Assembly: GCF_019890615.1 (NCBI RefSeq)
Contig: NZ_JAINVZ010000015.1
Coordinates: 124,001-188,000, forward strand
Length of the DNA stretch: 64,000 bases
Reading direction: 5' to 3'
DNA from: Streptantibioticus parmotrematis
GTDB taxonomy: Bacteria; Actinomycetota; Actinomycetes; Streptomycetales; Streptomycetaceae
Shown here: positions 10,497-16,642 of the stretch, in pieces
Numbering within the stretch: the stretch's first letter is position 1
Layout of the letters: the number at the start of each line of letters is the position of its first letter
Notes under the pieces: model-generated
The model's input: only the letters and a program-made list of their open reading frames with translations
The model's database searches: none
What the model was told of the DNA's origin: nothing
Translations under genes and position numbers: made by a program

Positions 10497-10640
10497 CGAT
10501 CGTGTGCGCGCGGGGGAAGCCGGTGGGATTCCGGCGCTGGCCCGCAACCGTGACGCGTCCGCCCGACCCGGGGCGGCCGCCCAGCCGGAGTGCCCGTCCG
10601 CACGCGTGAGGCTCCCGGTGACGACGCGCGAGCGCCGCCA
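10497..10640 (+). promoter_or_regulatory. Cobalamin (AdoCbl) riboswitch
   Basis: Core elements occur in canonical order: GGGAAGCCGGTG at 10513-10524, GGATTCCGGCGCTG after it, the invariant CCCGCAACCGTGACG block at 10541-10555, and the B12-box-like CAGCCGGAGTGCC at 10582-10594. The outer boundaries are approximate. It precedes a five-gene B12 uptake operon, so high cobalamin should switch the operon off. Confidence 0.9.
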
Positions 10641-10679
10641 CCGGCACCGTCGAGGAAACGCGGAGCCGGAGCCCGGTGC

Positions 10680-10705
10680 CGTGCCCCCGCCCGCGTGGGG
10701 GCACG
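10680..10705 (+). terminator. Hairpin downstream of the riboswitch, probable expression platform
   Basis: CGTGCCCCC pairs with GGGGGCACG across an 8-base loop. It lies between the aptamer and the start codon at 10778. It could terminate transcription in the B12-bound state or compete with an antiterminator; there is no U-tract, as is usual in Streptomyces. Confidence 0.5.
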
Positions 10706-10777
10706 CGGCGGTGCGCCCTGCCGCGCTCCGCGTTCGCGAGGTCTTCGTCAAGTCTCCCGAAAGGCACCGAACACGCC

Positions 10778-12034
10778 ATGGCACTCCGCCTCGCCGTGAC
10801 CCGATCCCTGGGCACCCTGGTCGCCGCCGCCGCGCTCGGCGCCGCGGTGGTCCCCGCCGCCTCGGCGGCCTCCCCGTCGCCGTCCGCGCCGCCGAAGCTG
10901 CCCGCGGGCCTTTACGGGGCGACCGACCCCACGTACGACGGGGTGTGGCGGCAGTCCACCGCGCTGCTGGCGCTGGACGCGGTGAAGACGGCGCCGCCCG
11001 CGGCCGCGGTGGACTGGCTGACCGGCCAGCAGTGCGCGGACGGCGGCTTCACCGCGTACCGCGCGAGCACCGCGCAGCCGTGCGTGGCGAAGAACGAGGA
11101 CACCAACTCGACGGGCCTGGCCGTGCAGGCGCTGGCCGCGCTCGGCGGGCACCAGGCGGCCGTGTCGAAGGCGGTGACCTGGCTGAAGGGGATGCAGGAG
11201 AGCGACGGCGGCTGGGGCTACCAGCAGGGCGCGGCCACCGACGCCGACTCCACGACCGTCGTCGAGGGCGCGCTGACCGCGGCGGGCGAGCACCCCGCGC
11301 AGGTCACCAAGGGCGGCAAGAACGGGATGGACGCCCTGCGCGGCCTCCAACTGGGCTGCGACGCCCCGCAGGCGCAGCGCGGCGCGTTCGCGTACCAGCC
11401 GGATCCCAAGGGCGGGAAGCTCACCGCCAACGACAAGGCGACCACCGACGGCGTCATCGGCGCGCACGGCTCCGGCTACCTGGTGGCCGCGCCCGCGGGC
11501 GACAGCGCGCCGAAGGCCCCGGCCTGCCCGTCCGGTTCCTCGGCGAAGCCCGGCGACGCGAACGCCTCCGCGCAGGCCGGGTCCGCTTACCTGGCCGGTG
11601 TGCTGGACGCGGGCGGGCAGCACCTGACGACCGCGCAGCCCGGCTCCAGCACCAAGACGCCGGACTACTCGACGACCGCCGACGCGGTGCTCGCGCTCGC
11701 CTCCGACGGCCACCTCGCGGCGGCCAAGAAGCCGTACGACTGGCTGGTCGCCAACGCCTCCGGTTGGGCCAAGGACAACCCCGCCGCGCTCGGCCAGCTG
11801 GTCCTGGCCTCGGCGGCGGTCGGCGCCAACCCGCACGACTTCGGCGGCACCGACCTGGTACGGCAGCTGGCCAACACCGGGCCGCAGGGCAGCGCCGCGC
11901 CCGCGCCGTCCGCGAGCAGCGCCAAGAGCAGCGGCAAGGGCGGCGGCGAGAGCATCTGGTGGATCATCGGCGTCGGCCTGGTCGCGGGCGTCGGCATCGG
12001 CTTCGCGCTCAGCCTGCGCAGGAAGCGGGGCTGA
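10778..12034 (+). CDS. Secreted alpha/alpha-toroid protein of the B12 operon, C-terminally anchored
   Basis: 418-residue exported protein. A signal peptide (residues 1-30, ending AASA) precedes a helical repeat domain with QQCADGGFTAY and MQESDGGWGYQ turns of the prenyltransferase/squalene-oxidase repeat. The tail is a Ser/Ala/Gly linker, one hydrophobic helix (IWWIIGVGLVAGVGIGFAL) and RRKRG, a surface anchor without an LPxTG motif. It is first behind the cobalamin riboswitch. Vertebrate intrinsic factor and transcobalamin also use an alpha/alpha toroid to hold cobalamin, so a surface corrinoid-binding role is attractive but unproven. RBS GAAAGG at 10759-10764. Confidence 0.75.
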   Translation: MALRLAVTRSLGTLVAAAALGAAVVPAASAASPSPSAPPKLPAGLYGATDPTYDGVWRQSTALLALDAVKTAPPAAAVDWLTGQQCADGGFTAYRASTAQPCVAKNEDTNSTGLAVQALAALGGHQAAVSKAVTWLKGMQESDGGWGYQQGAATDADSTTVVEGALTAAGEHPAQVTKGGKNGMDALRGLQLGCDAPQAQRGAFAYQPDPKGGKLTANDKATTDGVIGAHGSGYLVAAPAGDSAPKAPACPSGSSAKPGDANASAQAGSAYLAGVLDAGGQHLTTAQPGSSTKTPDYSTTADAVLALASDGHLAAAKKPYDWLVANASGWAKDNPAALGQLVLASAAVGANPHDFGGTDLVRQLANTGPQGSAAPAPSASSAKSSGKGGGESIWWIIGVGLVAGVGIGFALSLRRKRG

Positions 12035-12036
12035 CG

Positions 12037-12873
12037 GTGCGGGGCGCGCCGCGGACGCCGACCGCGGGGGCGCGGCACGTCGCACCGGACTCGGGGGCGC
12101 GGCACGTCGCACCGGACTCGGGGGCGCGGCATGTCGCACTGGGCGTGGGAGCACGGCATGTCGCACTGGGCGTGGGAGCACGGCGCGTCGTACGGGCCGG
12201 GCTGCTGCCGCTGCTCCTGCTCGCCCTGTCCGCGACGGCCGCCTCGCTGATCGCCGCGAGCCCGGCGCAGGCGGTCGGCTACCGCTACTGGTCGTTCTGG
12301 GAACGCACCGGCTCCACCTGGACGTTCGCCCAGACCGGTCCCGCGATGACCGACCCGGCGGACGGCGCGGTGGAGGGCTGGCGTTTCGCGGTGAGCGCGG
12401 ACTCGGCCGACGCGGTCAAGCCGCGCGGGGCGGCGTCGTTCGCGACGATCTGCGCGAGCACGCCGCCGCGCCCCGGCACCAAGCGGGTCGCGCTGGTGCT
12501 GGACTTCGGCACCTCGCAGGACGCCCCGAACGGCGCGACCCCGCCGGCCGCGCGCACCTCCTGCGCCCGCGTGCCCGAGGACGCCACCGCGGCCGACGCG
12601 CTGGCGGCGGTGGCCAAGCCGCTGCGGTACGACGCGAGCGGGCTGGTCTGCGCGATCACGGGCTACCCGGCCACCGGCTGCGGTGAACAGGTCTCCTCGG
12701 GCGGCGCCACCGGCTCCTCCCCGGCCGCGTCCCGCTCGGCGAGCGCCAACGGCGGCTCGGGTAGCGGCGGTTCGGACACCGGGCCGTCGCTGGGCGTGCT
12801 CGCCGGGGGCGCGGTCGTGCTGCTGCTCGGCGCGGGCGCGGCCTGGCAGGTGCGCAGGCGGCGCGAACGATGA
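12037..12873 (+). CDS. SCO2322-family secreted protein, C-terminally anchored
   Basis: Begins 2 bp after the previous stop. If GTG 12037 is used, the first 45 residues are 9-residue repeats (GARHVAPDS, GARHVALGV); GTG 12172 gives a cleaner export signal (GARRVVRAGLLPLLLLAL...). The mature domain has YRYWSFWERTGSTWTFAQTGPAM and paired cysteines (TICAS, TSCARV, LVCAITGYPATGC) and resembles the SCO2322 family, a usual companion of actinobacterial ECF operons. It ends in a Ser/Gly linker, one membrane helix and RRRRER. With the preceding toroid protein it may form a two-part corrinoid receptor. Overlaps the next gene by four bases. Confidence 0.7.
   Translation: MRGAPRTPTAGARHVAPDSGARHVAPDSGARHVALGVGARHVALGVGARRVVRAGLLPLLLLALSATAASLIAASPAQAVGYRYWSFWERTGSTWTFAQTGPAMTDPADGAVEGWRFAVSADSADAVKPRGAASFATICASTPPRPGTKRVALVLDFGTSQDAPNGATPPAARTSCARVPEDATAADALAAVAKPLRYDASGLVCAITGYPATGCGEQVSSGGATGSSPAASRSASANGGSGSGGSDTGPSLGVLAGGAVVLLLGAGAAWQVRRRRER
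12066..12190 (+). repeat. 27-bp tandem repeat at the 5' end of the SCO2322-type gene
   Basis: About 4.6 units of 27 bp: 12066-12092 and 12093-12119 are identical, 12120-12146 and 12147-12173 are a second variant, and the rest is partial. In frame it encodes nine-residue repeats beginning GARHVA. It may be untranslated leader if GTG 12172 is the real start. Confidence 0.9.
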
Positions 12874-14159
12874 CCCGCACCTGGTCGTCGCTGGCCCCGG
12901 CGCGGGCCGACCGGTCCAACGCGCTGCACGCGGGCGCCTGGTGGGTGTGGGCGCTGGGCCTGGCCACCGCGGCGTCGCGCACCACCAACCCGTTGCTGCT
13001 CCTGCTCGTCGTCGCGGTCGCGGGCTACGTCGTCGCCGCCCGCAGGACGGACGCGCCCTGGGCCCGCTCCTACGGCGCGTTCCTCAAGCTCGGCGTCTTC
13101 GTGCTGGGCATCCGCGTGGTCTTCGCGATCGCGCTGGGCTCCCCGGTCCCGGGCACCCACACCCTGTTCACGCTGCCCGAGATCCCGTTGCCGCACTGGG
13201 CGCAGGGCGTGCGGCTCGGCGGCCGGGTCACCGCGGAGGGCGTCGCGTTCGCCGCGTACGACGGGCTGAAGCTGGCCACCCTGCTGGTCTGCGTCGGCGC
13301 CGCCAACGCGCTGGCCAACCCGGCGCGGCTGCTCAAGTCGCTGCCCGGCGCGCTGTACGAGGCGGGGGTCGCCGTCGTCGTGGCGATGACCTTCGCGCCC
13401 AACCTCGTCGCCGACGTCGGCAGGCTGCGGGCCGCGCGCCGGATGCGGGGCCGCGCCGACACCGGGATCAGGGCGCTGGCGCAGGTCGGACTGCCCGTGC
13501 TGGAAGGCGCGTTGGAGCGGTCGGTGGCGCTGGCCGCCTCGATGGACGCGCGCGGCTACGGCCGCACCGCCGACGTCCCGCGCGGCGTGCGACGGCTGAC
13601 GGCCGCGCTGACGCTGGGCGGACTGCTGGGCGTGTGCGTCGGCTCGTACGGGCTGCTGGCGGCGCAGGGCGCGGGCTTCGGGGCGCCGTTGCTGGGGGCG
13701 GGGCTCGCGGCGGCGCTGGCCGGGCTGTGGCTGGGCGGGCGGCGCAGCGTGCGCACCCGCTACCGGCCGGACCGCTGGGGCACGCGGGCCTGGCTGGTGG
13801 CCGGTTGCGGGATCGCGGTGGCGACGCTGACCATCTGGGCGGCGTCCTACGCCCCGGCCGGGCTCAACCCCCCGGCCGTTCCGCTGTCCGCGCCGACGCT
13901 GCCGCTGTGGCCCGCCGCGTCGCTGCTGCTGGGGCTGGTGCCCGCGGTGGTGGCACCGCTGCCCGCGCGGGCGGGCGGACGCGGGTCGTCGGCCGTATCC
14001 GTGCCGCGGGAGCAGGCGCGCGTCGACGTGCCGGAGGAGGAAGCGGGCGTGAACGTGCCGGAGGAGGAAGCGGGCGTGAACGTGCCGAAAGGGGAAGCGG
14101 GCGTGAACGTGCCCGAGGGCGATGCGCAGGTGAACGTGCGGAAGGGGCGAGCGCGTTGA
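12870..14159 (+). CDS. ECF transporter T component (CbiQ family)
   Basis: Transmembrane coupling subunit of an energy-coupling factor importer. Several hydrophobic helices flank the cytoplasmic coupling region, whose two Ala-Arg motifs are visible: RAARRMRGRAD and ASMDARGYG (about residues 190-235), which in this family contact the ATPases. 429 residues is long for CbiQ because of a C-terminal tail of 9-residue repeats (VPEEEAGVN and variants). ATG 12870 overlaps the previous stop, and its own stop overlaps the ATPase start. Position in a cobalamin-riboswitch operon indicates corrinoid or cobalt import. Confidence 0.85.
   Translation: MTRTWSSLAPARADRSNALHAGAWWVWALGLATAASRTTNPLLLLLVVAVAGYVVAARRTDAPWARSYGAFLKLGVFVLGIRVVFAIALGSPVPGTHTLFTLPEIPLPHWAQGVRLGGRVTAEGVAFAAYDGLKLATLLVCVGAANALANPARLLKSLPGALYEAGVAVVVAMTFAPNLVADVGRLRAARRMRGRADTGIRALAQVGLPVLEGALERSVALAASMDARGYGRTADVPRGVRRLTAALTLGGLLGVCVGSYGLLAAQGAGFGAPLLGAGLAAALAGLWLGGRRSVRTRYRPDRWGTRAWLVAGCGIAVATLTIWAASYAPAGLNPPAVPLSAPTLPLWPAASLLLGLVPAVVAPLPARAGGRGSSAVSVPREQARVDVPEEEAGVNVPEEEAGVNVPKGEAGVNVPEGDAQVNVRKGRAR
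14001..14159 (+). repeat. 27-bp tandem repeat at the 3' end of the ECF-T gene
   Basis: Units at 14001, 14028, 14055, 14082, 14109 and a 24-bp last one at 14136-14159. Units 2 and 3 are identical. The final degenerate unit carries the T-component stop codon, the GAAGGGG ribosome site and most of the TTG start of the next gene. Confidence 0.9.
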
Positions 14160-15781
14160 TCCGCTTCGAGAACGTCTCGGTCACCTACGCCGACGCGGAC
14201 CGCCCCGCGCTCAGCGGCGTCGAACTCACCGTCGAGGAGGGTGAGTTGTGCCTGCTCGCCGGGCCGTCGGGGGTGGGCAAGTCCACGTTGCTCGGCGCGG
14301 TGAGCGGGCTCGTGCCGCACTTCACCGGCGGCCGTCTCGGCGGCCGGGTGACCGTCGCCGGGCGCGACACCCGTACCCACAAGCCGCGTGAACTCGCCGA
14401 CGTGGTCGGCACGGTGGGCCAGGATCCGCTGGCGCACTTCGTGACCGACGTCGTCGAGGACGAACTCGCCTACGGCATGGAGTCGTTGGGGATCGCGCCG
14501 GACGTGATGCGGCGCCGCGTCGAGGAGACCCTCGACCTGCTGGGCCTGGCCGACCTGCGCGACCGCCCGCTCGCGACGCTGTCGGGCGGACAGCGGCAGC
14601 GGGTGGCGATCGGGTCGGTGCTGACCGTGCACCCGAAGGTGCTGGTGCTGGACGAGCCGACCTCCGCGCTGGACCCGGCCGCCGCCGAGGAGGTCCTCGC
14701 GGTGCTGCAACGCCTCGTGCACGACCTGGGCACCACGGTCCTGCTCGCCGAACACCGTCTGGAACGGGTCGTGCAGTACGCGGACCGCGTGGTGCTGCTG
14801 CCCGGCCCGGGCGAACCTCCCGTGGTGGGCGACCCGGCCTCGGTGATGGCGGTCTCGCCGGTGTTCCCGCCAGTCGTCGGGCTGGGCAGGCTGGCGGGCT
14901 GGTCGCCGCTGCCGCTGTCGGTACGCGACGCGCGACGGGCGGCCGGGGCGCTGCGCGAGGAGCTGGCGGGACGCTCGCCGGTGCCGGTGGCCGCCCCCGC
15001 CGCGGACGGCGAGCCGGTCGCGAAGGCGTCGGGCCTTTCGGTGCGGCGCGGCAGGATCGAGGCGCTGCGCGGCGTGGACCTGGCCGTGCGGCCGGGCGAG
15101 GCGATCGCGTTGATGGGCCGCAACGGCGCGGGCAAGTCCACGCTGCTGGGCACGTTGACCGGGCTGTACGAGCCCGCGGCCGGCACGGTGCGCGTCGACG
15201 GCGTCGTGCCGCACCGCACGGCGCCGCGGCGTCTGGTGCGTCACGTGGGCCTGGTGCCGCAGGAGCCGCGCGACCTGTTGTACGCGGACACGGTGACCGG
15301 TGAGTGCGCGGCGGCAGACGATGACGCGGGTGCCGCGGGTGCCGCGGCCGGGACGTGCCGGGCGCTGGTGGAGGAGCTGCTGCCCGGGGTGCCGGACGAC
15401 ACGCACCCGCGCGACCTGTCCGAGGGCCAGCGCCTCGCCCTGGCGCTGGCGGTCGTCCTCACCGCGCGTCCCCCGCTGCTGCTGCTGGACGAGCCGACCC
15501 GGGGTCTGGACTACGCGGCGAAGGCCCGCCTGGTCACGCACCTGCGCGCGCTCGCGGCCGAGGGCCATGCGATCATCCTGGCCACGCACGACGTGGAGCT
15601 GGCGGCCGAACTCGCCCACCGGGTGGTCATCCTGGCCGACGGCGAGGTGGTCGCCGACGGCCCGACCGCCGAAGTGGTCGTCTCCAGCCCCGCGTTCGCC
15701 CCGCAGGTGTCGAAGGTGCTGCGCCCGCAGGACTGGCTGACGGTGAGTCAGGTCGCCGGGGCGATGGGGTGGTCGGGGTGA
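14156..15781 (+). CDS. ECF transporter ATPase, two fused ABC domains
   Basis: 541-residue double ATPase, equal to the two A subunits of an ECF module. First domain: Walker A GPSGVGKS (residues 36-43), signature LSGGQRQR, Walker B VLVLDEPTSALD. Second domain: GRNGAGKS (about 320-327), signature LSEGQRLALAL, Walker B LLLLDEPTRGLD. Start is TTG 14156 in a TTGA overlap, with GAAGGGG at 14141-14147; no other in-frame start has a ribosome site. Energises the T and S components on either side. Confidence 0.85.
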   Translation: MIRFENVSVTYADADRPALSGVELTVEEGELCLLAGPSGVGKSTLLGAVSGLVPHFTGGRLGGRVTVAGRDTRTHKPRELADVVGTVGQDPLAHFVTDVVEDELAYGMESLGIAPDVMRRRVEETLDLLGLADLRDRPLATLSGGQRQRVAIGSVLTVHPKVLVLDEPTSALDPAAAEEVLAVLQRLVHDLGTTVLLAEHRLERVVQYADRVVLLPGPGEPPVVGDPASVMAVSPVFPPVVGLGRLAGWSPLPLSVRDARRAAGALREELAGRSPVPVAAPAADGEPVAKASGLSVRRGRIEALRGVDLAVRPGEAIALMGRNGAGKSTLLGTLTGLYEPAAGTVRVDGVVPHRTAPRRLVRHVGLVPQEPRDLLYADTVTGECAAADDDAGAAGAAAGTCRALVEELLPGVPDDTHPRDLSEGQRLALALAVVLTARPPLLLLDEPTRGLDYAAKARLVTHLRALAAEGHAIILATHDVELAAELAHRVVILADGEVVADGPTAEVVVSSPAFAPQVSKVLRPQDWLTVSQVAGAMGWSG

Positions 15782-16611
15782 GCGGGCTGCGTGGGGCGCG
15801 CGCCGTCCGGCTCGGCCCGCGATCCGTCGCGGCCCTGGCGCTGATCACCGCGATCGGGGTGGTGGCGTTCGGCTGGCCGCTGCTGGCCTCGCCTGGTTCG
15901 GGCCTGGCGCACAGCGCGGACGCGCCCTGGCTCTTCGCCGCGTTGCTGCCGTTGCTGCTGGCCGTGGTCGTGGCGGCGATCTCCGACTCGGGCCTGGACG
16001 CGAAGGCGATCGCGATGCTGGGCGTGCTGGCGGCGGCCGGTGCCGCGTTGCGTCCGCTGGGCGCGGGGACGGCGGGCATCGAGCCGATGTTCTTCCTGAT
16101 GGTGCTGGCGGGCAGGGTGCTCGGCCCGGGCTTCGGTTTCGTGCTGGGGGCGCTGTCGATGTTCGCGTCGGCGCTGCTGACCGGCGGGGTCGGCCCGTGG
16201 ATGCCGTTCCAGATGCTCAGCATGGGCTGGGTCTCGATGGGCGCGGGCCTGCTGCCGGAACGGCCGCGCGGCAGACCGGAGTTGGCACTGCTGGCGGTCT
16301 ACGGCGCGATCTCGGCCCTGCTGTACGGCACCGTGATGAACCTCCAGGGCTGGCCGTACATCGCGGGCATGGTGTCAGGCGTCAGCTACGTCCCCGGCGC
16401 GCCGCTGGCGTCCAACCTGACGCGTTTCGTGGCGTACGACCTGACGACGTCCCTGGGCTGGGACATCCCCCGAGCGGCGCTGACCGCCACGCTGACGCTG
16501 CTCCTGGGCAAGCCGCTGCTGAAGGCGCTGCGCAGGGCGACCCGGAGGGCGGCGTTCGAGACGGAGGGGGATTTCGGGGAGGCGCGGGGTTCGGGCGGCC
16601 AGGCGCCGTAG
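15778..16611 (+). CDS. ECF transporter S component (substrate-binding membrane subunit)
   Basis: 277-residue integral membrane protein with about six helices, starting at GTG 15778 inside the previous stop (GTGA). The central Gly-rich stretch (MVLAGRVLGPGFGFVLGALSM, then GGVGPWMPFQMLSMGWVSMGAG) is typical of ECF S units. Cobalamin is the likely ligand because of the riboswitch; it may be the actinobacterial counterpart of the predicted CbrT-type units, but the sequence does not exclude cobalt or a B12 precursor. Followed by a 24-bp palindromic terminator. Confidence 0.75.
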   Translation: MSGLRGARAVRLGPRSVAALALITAIGVVAFGWPLLASPGSGLAHSADAPWLFAALLPLLLAVVVAAISDSGLDAKAIAMLGVLAAAGAALRPLGAGTAGIEPMFFLMVLAGRVLGPGFGFVLGALSMFASALLTGGVGPWMPFQMLSMGWVSMGAGLLPERPRGRPELALLAVYGAISALLYGTVMNLQGWPYIAGMVSGVSYVPGAPLASNLTRFVAYDLTTSLGWDIPRAALTATLTLLLGKPLLKALRRATRRAAFETEGDFGEARGSGGQAP

Positions 16612-16618
16612 TGCGGCC

Positions 16619-16642
16619 GGACACCCGCGGCCGCGGGTGTCC
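16619..16642. terminator. Terminator of the B12 operon
   Basis: Perfect 24-bp palindrome with 12-bp arms (GGACACCCGCGG and complement), 8 bp after the S-component stop. Confidence 0.75.

Follow-up and report, generated by a model that had tools for sequence, protein, structure and literature searches.

The stretch of DNA analysed here, the window, comprises 64,000 nucleotides of the Streptantibioticus parmotrematis genome (contig NZ_JAINVZ010000015.1, positions 124,001 to 188,000; positions below are counted from its first letter) and carries on its + strand an operon in which a B12 riboswitch is followed by the genes for an alpha/alpha toroid protein, an SCO2322-family protein and the EcfT, EcfAA' and EcfS subunits of an energy-coupling factor (ECF) importer. 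Successive genes are separated by a 2-base gap or overlap by 4 bases. The toroid protein (10778..12034, +) matches NF053823 (SCO2321_fam; 500.9 bits, cut-off 300) and is made of a signal peptide, the toroid, a C-terminal membrane helix and an RRKRG tail, while the second protein (12037..12873, +, with a GTG start of uncertain position) matches NF040672 (223.4 bits, cut-off 85) and comprises a signal peptide, a putative permuted transcobalamin-type beta domain and a GPS-CTERM membrane anchor (29.2 bits, cut-off 28). Both proteins thus pass the curated cut-offs of their NCBIfam families, SCO2321 and SCO2322, whose names carry no function. Downstream on the same strand lie the CbiQ-like transmembrane subunit EcfT (12870..14159; PF02361, 27.3 bits, cut-off 25), the fused ATPases EcfA-EcfA' (14156..15781, TTG start; ABC_tran, 189.5 bits over two stretches) and the substrate-binding membrane subunit EcfS (15778..16611, GTG start; PF12822, ECF_trnsprt, 34.3 bits, cut-off 30.7), T, A/A' and S being encoded together as in group I ECF operons. 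An initial annotation of this DNA had described a B12 riboswitch operon with two surface-anchored proteins in front of an ECF importer, which is borne out by the Rfam, NCBIfam and Pfam matches together with the conserved gene order reported below. Its further remark that both proteins end in a membrane helix and a basic tail also holds, according to the sequence and to the helices predicted in the structure models.

Riboswitch, gene order and distribution

The aptamer spans 10501..10606 on the + strand, with an outer stem read by eye (10501-10508 paired with 10599-10606). Its core matches RF00174 at 10514-10578 with 22.3 bits (expectation value, E, of 0.0014 in a 601-base search), which does not reach the gathering score of 31.5, and a search of the whole window at Rfam gathering scores listed tRNA alone and no riboswitch. 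Among relatives, 68 loci of a set of 80 named Streptomyces loci carry the core motif of the aptamer no more than 450 bases ahead of the toroid gene, and the gathering score of RF00174 is passed at this place in 6/20 and 6/13 relatives of two sets. An alignment of 23 aptamers, including that of the window, shows at least one double change in 8 of 21 predicted pairs, spread over two stems, with a small covariation term (-0.98). As a separate observation, a hairpin-like insert of recurrent sequence replaces GCAAC inside the riboswitch core upstream of the toroid in 6 of the 80 named loci as counted by script (L124, L134, L135, L142, L167 and L171), and a similar core insert was seen by eye in L025, L035, L104, L105 and L129, less clearly in L180. 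Such an insert may disable or rewire the aptamer.

Elsewhere in the host genome Rfam found seven more B12 riboswitch matches, six of them over the cut-off. The seven reading frames downstream, most of them partial, match known families in six cases (methylmalonate-semialdehyde dehydrogenase, MetE, NicT, CbiB, class I ribonucleotide reductase and CobN) and none in the seventh. According to the available text of PMC8914203, a B12 riboswitch precedes a methylmalonate-semialdehyde dehydrogenase gene in S. griseus; among the loci analysed here, L001 shows the same arrangement. Since frames such as those of CobN and CbiB type follow other B12 riboswitches, the host probably makes B12 and the window operon would serve salvage.

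Of 147 genomes sampled from the order, 130 score above the cut-off for NF053823, and all of these belong to the family of the window (130/132). The 80 named Streptomyces loci were retrieved with SCO2322 as query, so that this protein is present in each by design; all 80 also hold the toroid and EcfT, 72 hold EcfA and 65 hold EcfS. EcfA and/or EcfS are missing from 15 loci, which are likely cut, because all of them are shorter than 10.3 kb. The five-gene order is kept in 64 of the 65 complete loci, more than chance would give. A second set comprises 20 loci, of which 18 belong to genomes of other families (picked from the best matches to the SCO2322 profile) and two to genome G010; the beta domain, EcfT, EcfA and EcfS are colinear in 20/20, with a toroid alongside in 16/20. 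In a search of 18 loci of this second set (L068-L085) with Rfam, a B12 riboswitch was found directly upstream on the right strand at gathering score in nine, below it in four more, the lower threshold having been applied to these four loci alone, and not found in five; the riboswitch of L083 lies on the opposite strand and is excluded from the count.

In two of these loci, L079 and L075, the toroid, one or two beta domains and CWB2 cell-wall-binding repeats are fused in one protein, with the toroid first as in intrinsic factor, and both loci also carry a separate beta protein. The union of both domains in one polypeptide was therefore found in L079 and L075 and not in the window, where they are encoded by separate genes. 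One toroid of a set of 18 operon toroids (17 distant ones and that of the window) carries an SLH module.

Other loci differ in their composition. In a genome of the Streptomyces family, L083 (G010:C1:3645000-3663000) is an additional locus of the unpermuted kind and holds a beta domain, EcfT, EcfA, EcfS, a toroid and a true DUF4430 protein. In L084 (G343), two toroid-beta tandem pairs stand ahead of a single ECF set, and four matches to B12 riboswitches fall within 18 kb. The toroid and beta domain also adjoin ECF genes in L069 and L071 (G525 and G502, genomes of 1.6 and 1.9 Mb), the riboswitch being of the adenosylcobalamin (AdoCbl) type RF01482, sub-threshold, in the former and Cobalamin in the latter.

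The SCO2322 domain is circularly permuted

The NCBIfam SCO2322 profile matches distant genomes of the phylum as halves whose order is swapped. In this line, a profile built from 11 unpermuted beta domains of distant loci in the phylum matches these domains end to end, and the SCO2322 proteins of the Streptomyces family as two swapped parts. The two-part order was swapped in 140 locus entries and native in none, with a single part in 3 entries, and L160 and L163, in addition to the 140, are also swapped with a stretched first match; the entries overlap, some genomes having been fetched twice. In the window, the first part (12268..12402, +; G000:C7:136268-136402) corresponds to the C-terminal part of the unpermuted domain (profile positions 74-119 of 121), and the second (12475..12690, +; G000:C7:136475-136690) to its N-terminal part (3-74 of 121). 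Profile-profile comparison of SCO2322 with the unpermuted profile gave two swapped matches with single-comparison E-values of 1.2e-13 and 3e-12, and with the doubled unpermuted profile one colinear alignment of 110 columns (probability 99.5, single-comparison E 1.9e-22). In a column-shuffle control of this comparison, the real best score was 83.8, and 100 shuffles had a mean of 12.9 and a maximum of 21.1. The SCO2322 domain is thus a circular permutation of the beta domain that holds the same operon position elsewhere in the phylum. A GCGEQ string near the end of the domain, which we take to resemble the thioester motif of complement proteins, was considered as such a motif and ruled out, as this stretch varies among relatives (GCGDP, GCGEA, GCGEP).

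The unpermuted domain aligns in turn with DUF4430 proteins of the phylum, colinearly over 95-96 columns with a probability of 60-79, and over 73 columns on realignment; the score of 30.9 compares with a maximum of 17.9 in 100 column shuffles and with 8.0 for the reversed profile. The DUF4430 profile yielded four rows up to E 10 in a comparison with the PDB, and reached transcobalamin-1 (4kki, residues 362-431) at E 0.011 and transcobalamin-2 at E 0.38. As described in the available text of PMC4350170, DUF4430 is located in the C-terminal region of transcobalamins. SCO2322 had no Pfam match up to E 1, the curated cut-off of PF14478 (DUF4430) not being reached, and HMMER found no DUF4430 in 10 proteins with a beta domain or SCO2322, which confines this link to profile-profile comparison. 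The connection of SCO2322 with transcobalamin would accordingly be an indirect chain that leads from SCO2322 through the unpermuted domain and DUF4430 to transcobalamin.

A second line of evidence comes from the S component, which was surveyed in 296 genomes of the phylum, matches of 180 bits or more being classed as strong and those under 100 bits as distant. A match was obtained in 105 genomes (59 strong, 44 distant, 2 intermediate). Among the 59 genomes with a strong S component, 45 carry the beta domain on the same strand within 10 kb, its position being 2.1-3.8 kb upstream in 44 cases. Where the S component is distant, this beta domain occurs in 0 of 44 genomes; a DUF4430 protein lies 2.4-3.7 kb upstream in 35 of them and is found anywhere in the genome in 43. 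The two intermediate genomes have neither. The beta domain never occurred without the S component (0/53 genomes), and DUF4430 did so in 5/51. As strong S components mostly adjoin the beta domain and distant ones mostly a DUF4430 protein, the SCO2322-type domain and DUF4430 fill the same slot beside one S-component family.

The toroid

The AlphaFold2 model of the toroid protein is a helical toroid with a mean predicted local distance difference test (pLDDT) of 83, mostly above 90 in the core of residues about 40-370, so the alpha/alpha toroid of carriers such as intrinsic factor and transcobalamin is present according to the model and its fold matches. Its best match is drimenyl diphosphate synthase (7xqz; Z 23.6, root-mean-square deviation 3.2, 253 aligned), and those of Foldseek also include complement C4 and prenyltransferases. 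The 50 matches listed by either structure search include neither intrinsic factor nor transcobalamin, the fold being a crowded one; likewise, cyclases, complement and prenyltransferases lead when toroid profiles are compared with the PDB, with no B12 carrier among the matches listed. The exported alpha/alpha toroid proposed by the initial annotation is retained, but its fold is not the strong argument for cobalamin, since terpene cyclases, complement C3/C4 and prenyltransferases share it. By itself the toroid fold is weak evidence for a receptor, and SCO2322, rather than the toroid, is the decisive part of the case.

With E values up to 1 accepted, Pfam searches of the operon toroids found the SHC C-terminal family in 16 of the 18 and the complement TED family in 11. 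PF01122, the eukaryotic cobalamin-binding family, was matched by 4 of the 18, with a best E of 0.0004; for one member shown in full the score was 11.6 of 25 bits. At the position of the SHC acid motif DVDD, presumably catalytic, the toroid reads D-T-N-S, with D108, N110 and T112 invariant in 60 sequences. The DXDD acid motif of class II terpene cyclases is thus missing from the aligned stretch, and on this ground the toroid was rejected as a terpene cyclase.

The Streptomyces toroid appears to be circularly permuted as well. All 13 scorable distant frames have the reverse of the Streptomyces segment order, and a doubled profile gave a colinear alignment of 295 columns (E 4.7e-37), compared with 201 columns (E 8.9e-26) for the undoubled one. 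A DPxxFGGxxL stretch was made out by eye, C-terminal in the Streptomyces toroid and N-terminal in the toroids of distant loci. This is a weaker claim than that for the beta domain, because the internal repeats of the toroid permit alternative registers (at E about 1e-10), and because second matches of just 4-5 bits underlie two of the 13 frames.

A candidate corrinoid receptor and its alternatives

Altogether, the operon probably encodes a split, permuted, intrinsic-factor-like corrinoid receptor that feeds a dedicated ECF importer. What was computed here is the gene content and order, the membrane anchoring by sequence, the permutation of SCO2322, the indirect link to DUF4430 and transcobalamin, the fusions and the riboswitch linkage; a corrinoid is proposed as the ligand because riboswitch, importer, toroid and putative transcobalamin-type domain coincide. 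The suggestion of the initial annotation that the two proteins form a surface corrinoid receptor feeding the ECF transporter keeps its direction, now through the permuted beta domain, the fusions, PF01122 and the linkage of riboswitch and ECF genes, its original reason, the toroid fold, not being the strong one.

Judging from the riboswitch class, low intracellular B12 would permit expression of the operon. Tethered individually by a single C-terminal membrane helix, the two exported proteins would provide the halves of a clamp, the toroid as alpha and the transcobalamin-type domain as beta half. In transcobalamin, one B12 is sandwiched by two domains (as described in the available text of PMC1796856), and on this ground the tethered pair is presumed to close around a corrinoid in the same way, which may then be handed to the adjoining EcfS and moved inward with it by the EcfT/AA' motor. 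We lean slightly towards the more specific view that Streptomyces split the B12 clamp into two membrane-tethered jaws, both circularly permuted, that close on the corrinoid directly above the S component. From the rest of the phylum to Streptomyces, the toroid would have passed from B-A to A-B and the beta domain from N-C to C-N, and this change could plausibly have passed, by duplication followed by trimming, through forms such as the tandem toroids and beta domains of L075 and L084. Such a tethered two-part receptor differs from BtuF-type binding proteins, and it is also unlike bare ECF S components.

A number of results weigh against this interpretation. No toroid lies nearby in 4 of the 20 loci, in the Streptomyces-family loci L088 (G109) and L089 (G035) the toroid and SCO2322 stand without neighbouring ECF genes or core motif, and L090 (G110) retains the toroid alone. 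Elsewhere in their genomes, G109 and G035 do carry an S component next to another toroid, and the pair may serve this S component; no S component was found in G110 and G067. Of the 59 strong-S genomes, eight have the beta domain elsewhere (seven on another contig, one on the opposite strand) and six have none. The AlphaFold2 model of SCO2322 is mediocre (pLDDT 70, under 50 in the presumed ligand hairpin stretch), and a fold search with this poor model of a permuted domain gave no match. The transcobalamin matches of DUF4430 are weak: 3u7z (E 0.0067), a putative metal-binding protein, ranks first in the PDB comparison, and transcobalamin-2 is on a par with a translation factor (E 0.36). Compared directly, the SCO2322 and DUF4430 profiles fail to align (E 0.051 over 24 columns), and the unpermuted beta profile matched antibody chains alone in the PDB, at E 0.79 or worse. 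Moreover, the S-family profile matched no solved S component in the PDB up to E 10 and gave no sequence link to CbrT; terpene cyclases are the closest structural and sequence matches of the toroid; and uptake may be dispensable, as other B12 riboswitches of the genome precede genes of CobN and CbiB type.

Part of this evidence suits other explanations. The importer could be the sole binder of the corrinoid, with the toroid and beta protein docking on a cell-wall polymer or scaffolding the importer, as might be read from the CWB2 modules in L079 and L075, the SLH module of another toroid and the four loci that have no toroid nearby. We regard this as unlikely, given that the combination of a toroid with a putative transcobalamin-type beta domain, seen as a fusion in L079 and L075, is that of the ligand clamp of animal carriers and would be superfluous for a pure anchor. 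It is less probable still that the operon imports cobalt or another vitamin under an indirect B12 control: EcfT is CbiQ-like, EcfS matches the folate S family below the cut-off (29.8 of 60 bits) and a NicT-type nickel/cobalt transporter is encoded under another B12 riboswitch of the genome, yet CbiM is absent from the Pfam matches of EcfS and a transcobalamin-type beta domain accompanies this S component.

The match to 7xqz and the SHC profile matches could also point to a terpene- or prenyl-processing enzyme whose B12 control is coincidental, a very improbable reading in view of the D-T-N-S at the acid-motif position and of a toroid that is, by its sequence, exported and membrane-anchored. 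Least credible of all is a toroid-SCO2322 pair acting as a corrinoid trap that denies cobamides to competitors instead of feeding this importer; G109 and G035 do hold the pair apart from ECF genes, but their S component stands beside another toroid, and pair and importer share one gene run in the 65 complete named loci.

A corrinoid receptor of this type has been predicted since 2007 from other bacteria, and the split, permuted form is what is new. In the text available of Burroughs et al. 2007 (PMC1796856), bacterial toroid and transcobalamin-type proteins in CbiO/CbiQ operons were predicted to act as B12 scavengers, and paralogous surface proteins within one operon were described. The SLBB proteins of that work resemble the window proteins in their surface location, the toroid, a transcobalamin-type domain (putative in the window), the operons with CbiO/CbiQ genes and the predicted scavenging of B12, but they are toroid-SLBB fusions from Gram-positive bacteria which as a rule do not synthesise B12. 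Neither 'permut' nor 'Streptomyces' nor 'riboswitch' occurs in the main text of that paper, and the portion available of a later review by the same authors (PMC1949818) mentions circular permutation for another beta-grasp family only. ECF-CbrT, as far as described in the accessible part of PMC5997447, is likewise an ECF-type importer with a link to B12, although of Group II, with a shared motor and with no surface receptor described. In literature coverage without most subscription journals, no work was found on SCO2321 or SCO2322 as B12 proteins, nor any mention of SCO2322, and one mention of SCO2321/2323/2324/2325 was off-topic; no paper was found that describes the operon in its title or at the start of its abstract, and the available text of PMC2667541 and PMC8914203 holds nothing on it. 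With the animal B12 carriers intrinsic factor, transcobalamin and haptocorrin, the operon pair shares a toroid alpha domain and, by the indirect chain above, a putative beta domain; unlike them, the Streptomyces pair forms two separate membrane-anchored proteins, with a permuted beta domain, apparently a permuted toroid and a predicted ligand.

A widespread, unnamed gene pair thereby becomes testable as a B12 receptor. If the proposal is true, the near-universal toroid of the Streptomyces family, to which no function is assigned, would be the B12 receptor of a major soil lineage, ECF importers would gain an extracellular receptor, and one ligand-binding machine would be a natural case of splitting and circular permutation. 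Moreover, the idea, put forward in the text available of PMC1796856, that the B12 carriers of animals have their origin in Gram-positive bacteria would obtain a genetically tractable system.

Finally, the operon contains two arrays of 27-base tandem repeats with differing units. That at 14000-14139 lies at the C-terminal end of EcfT, and that at 12063-12190 in the N-terminal coding region of SCO2322, where the true start is doubtful because the GARHVA... repeats precede the signal peptide.

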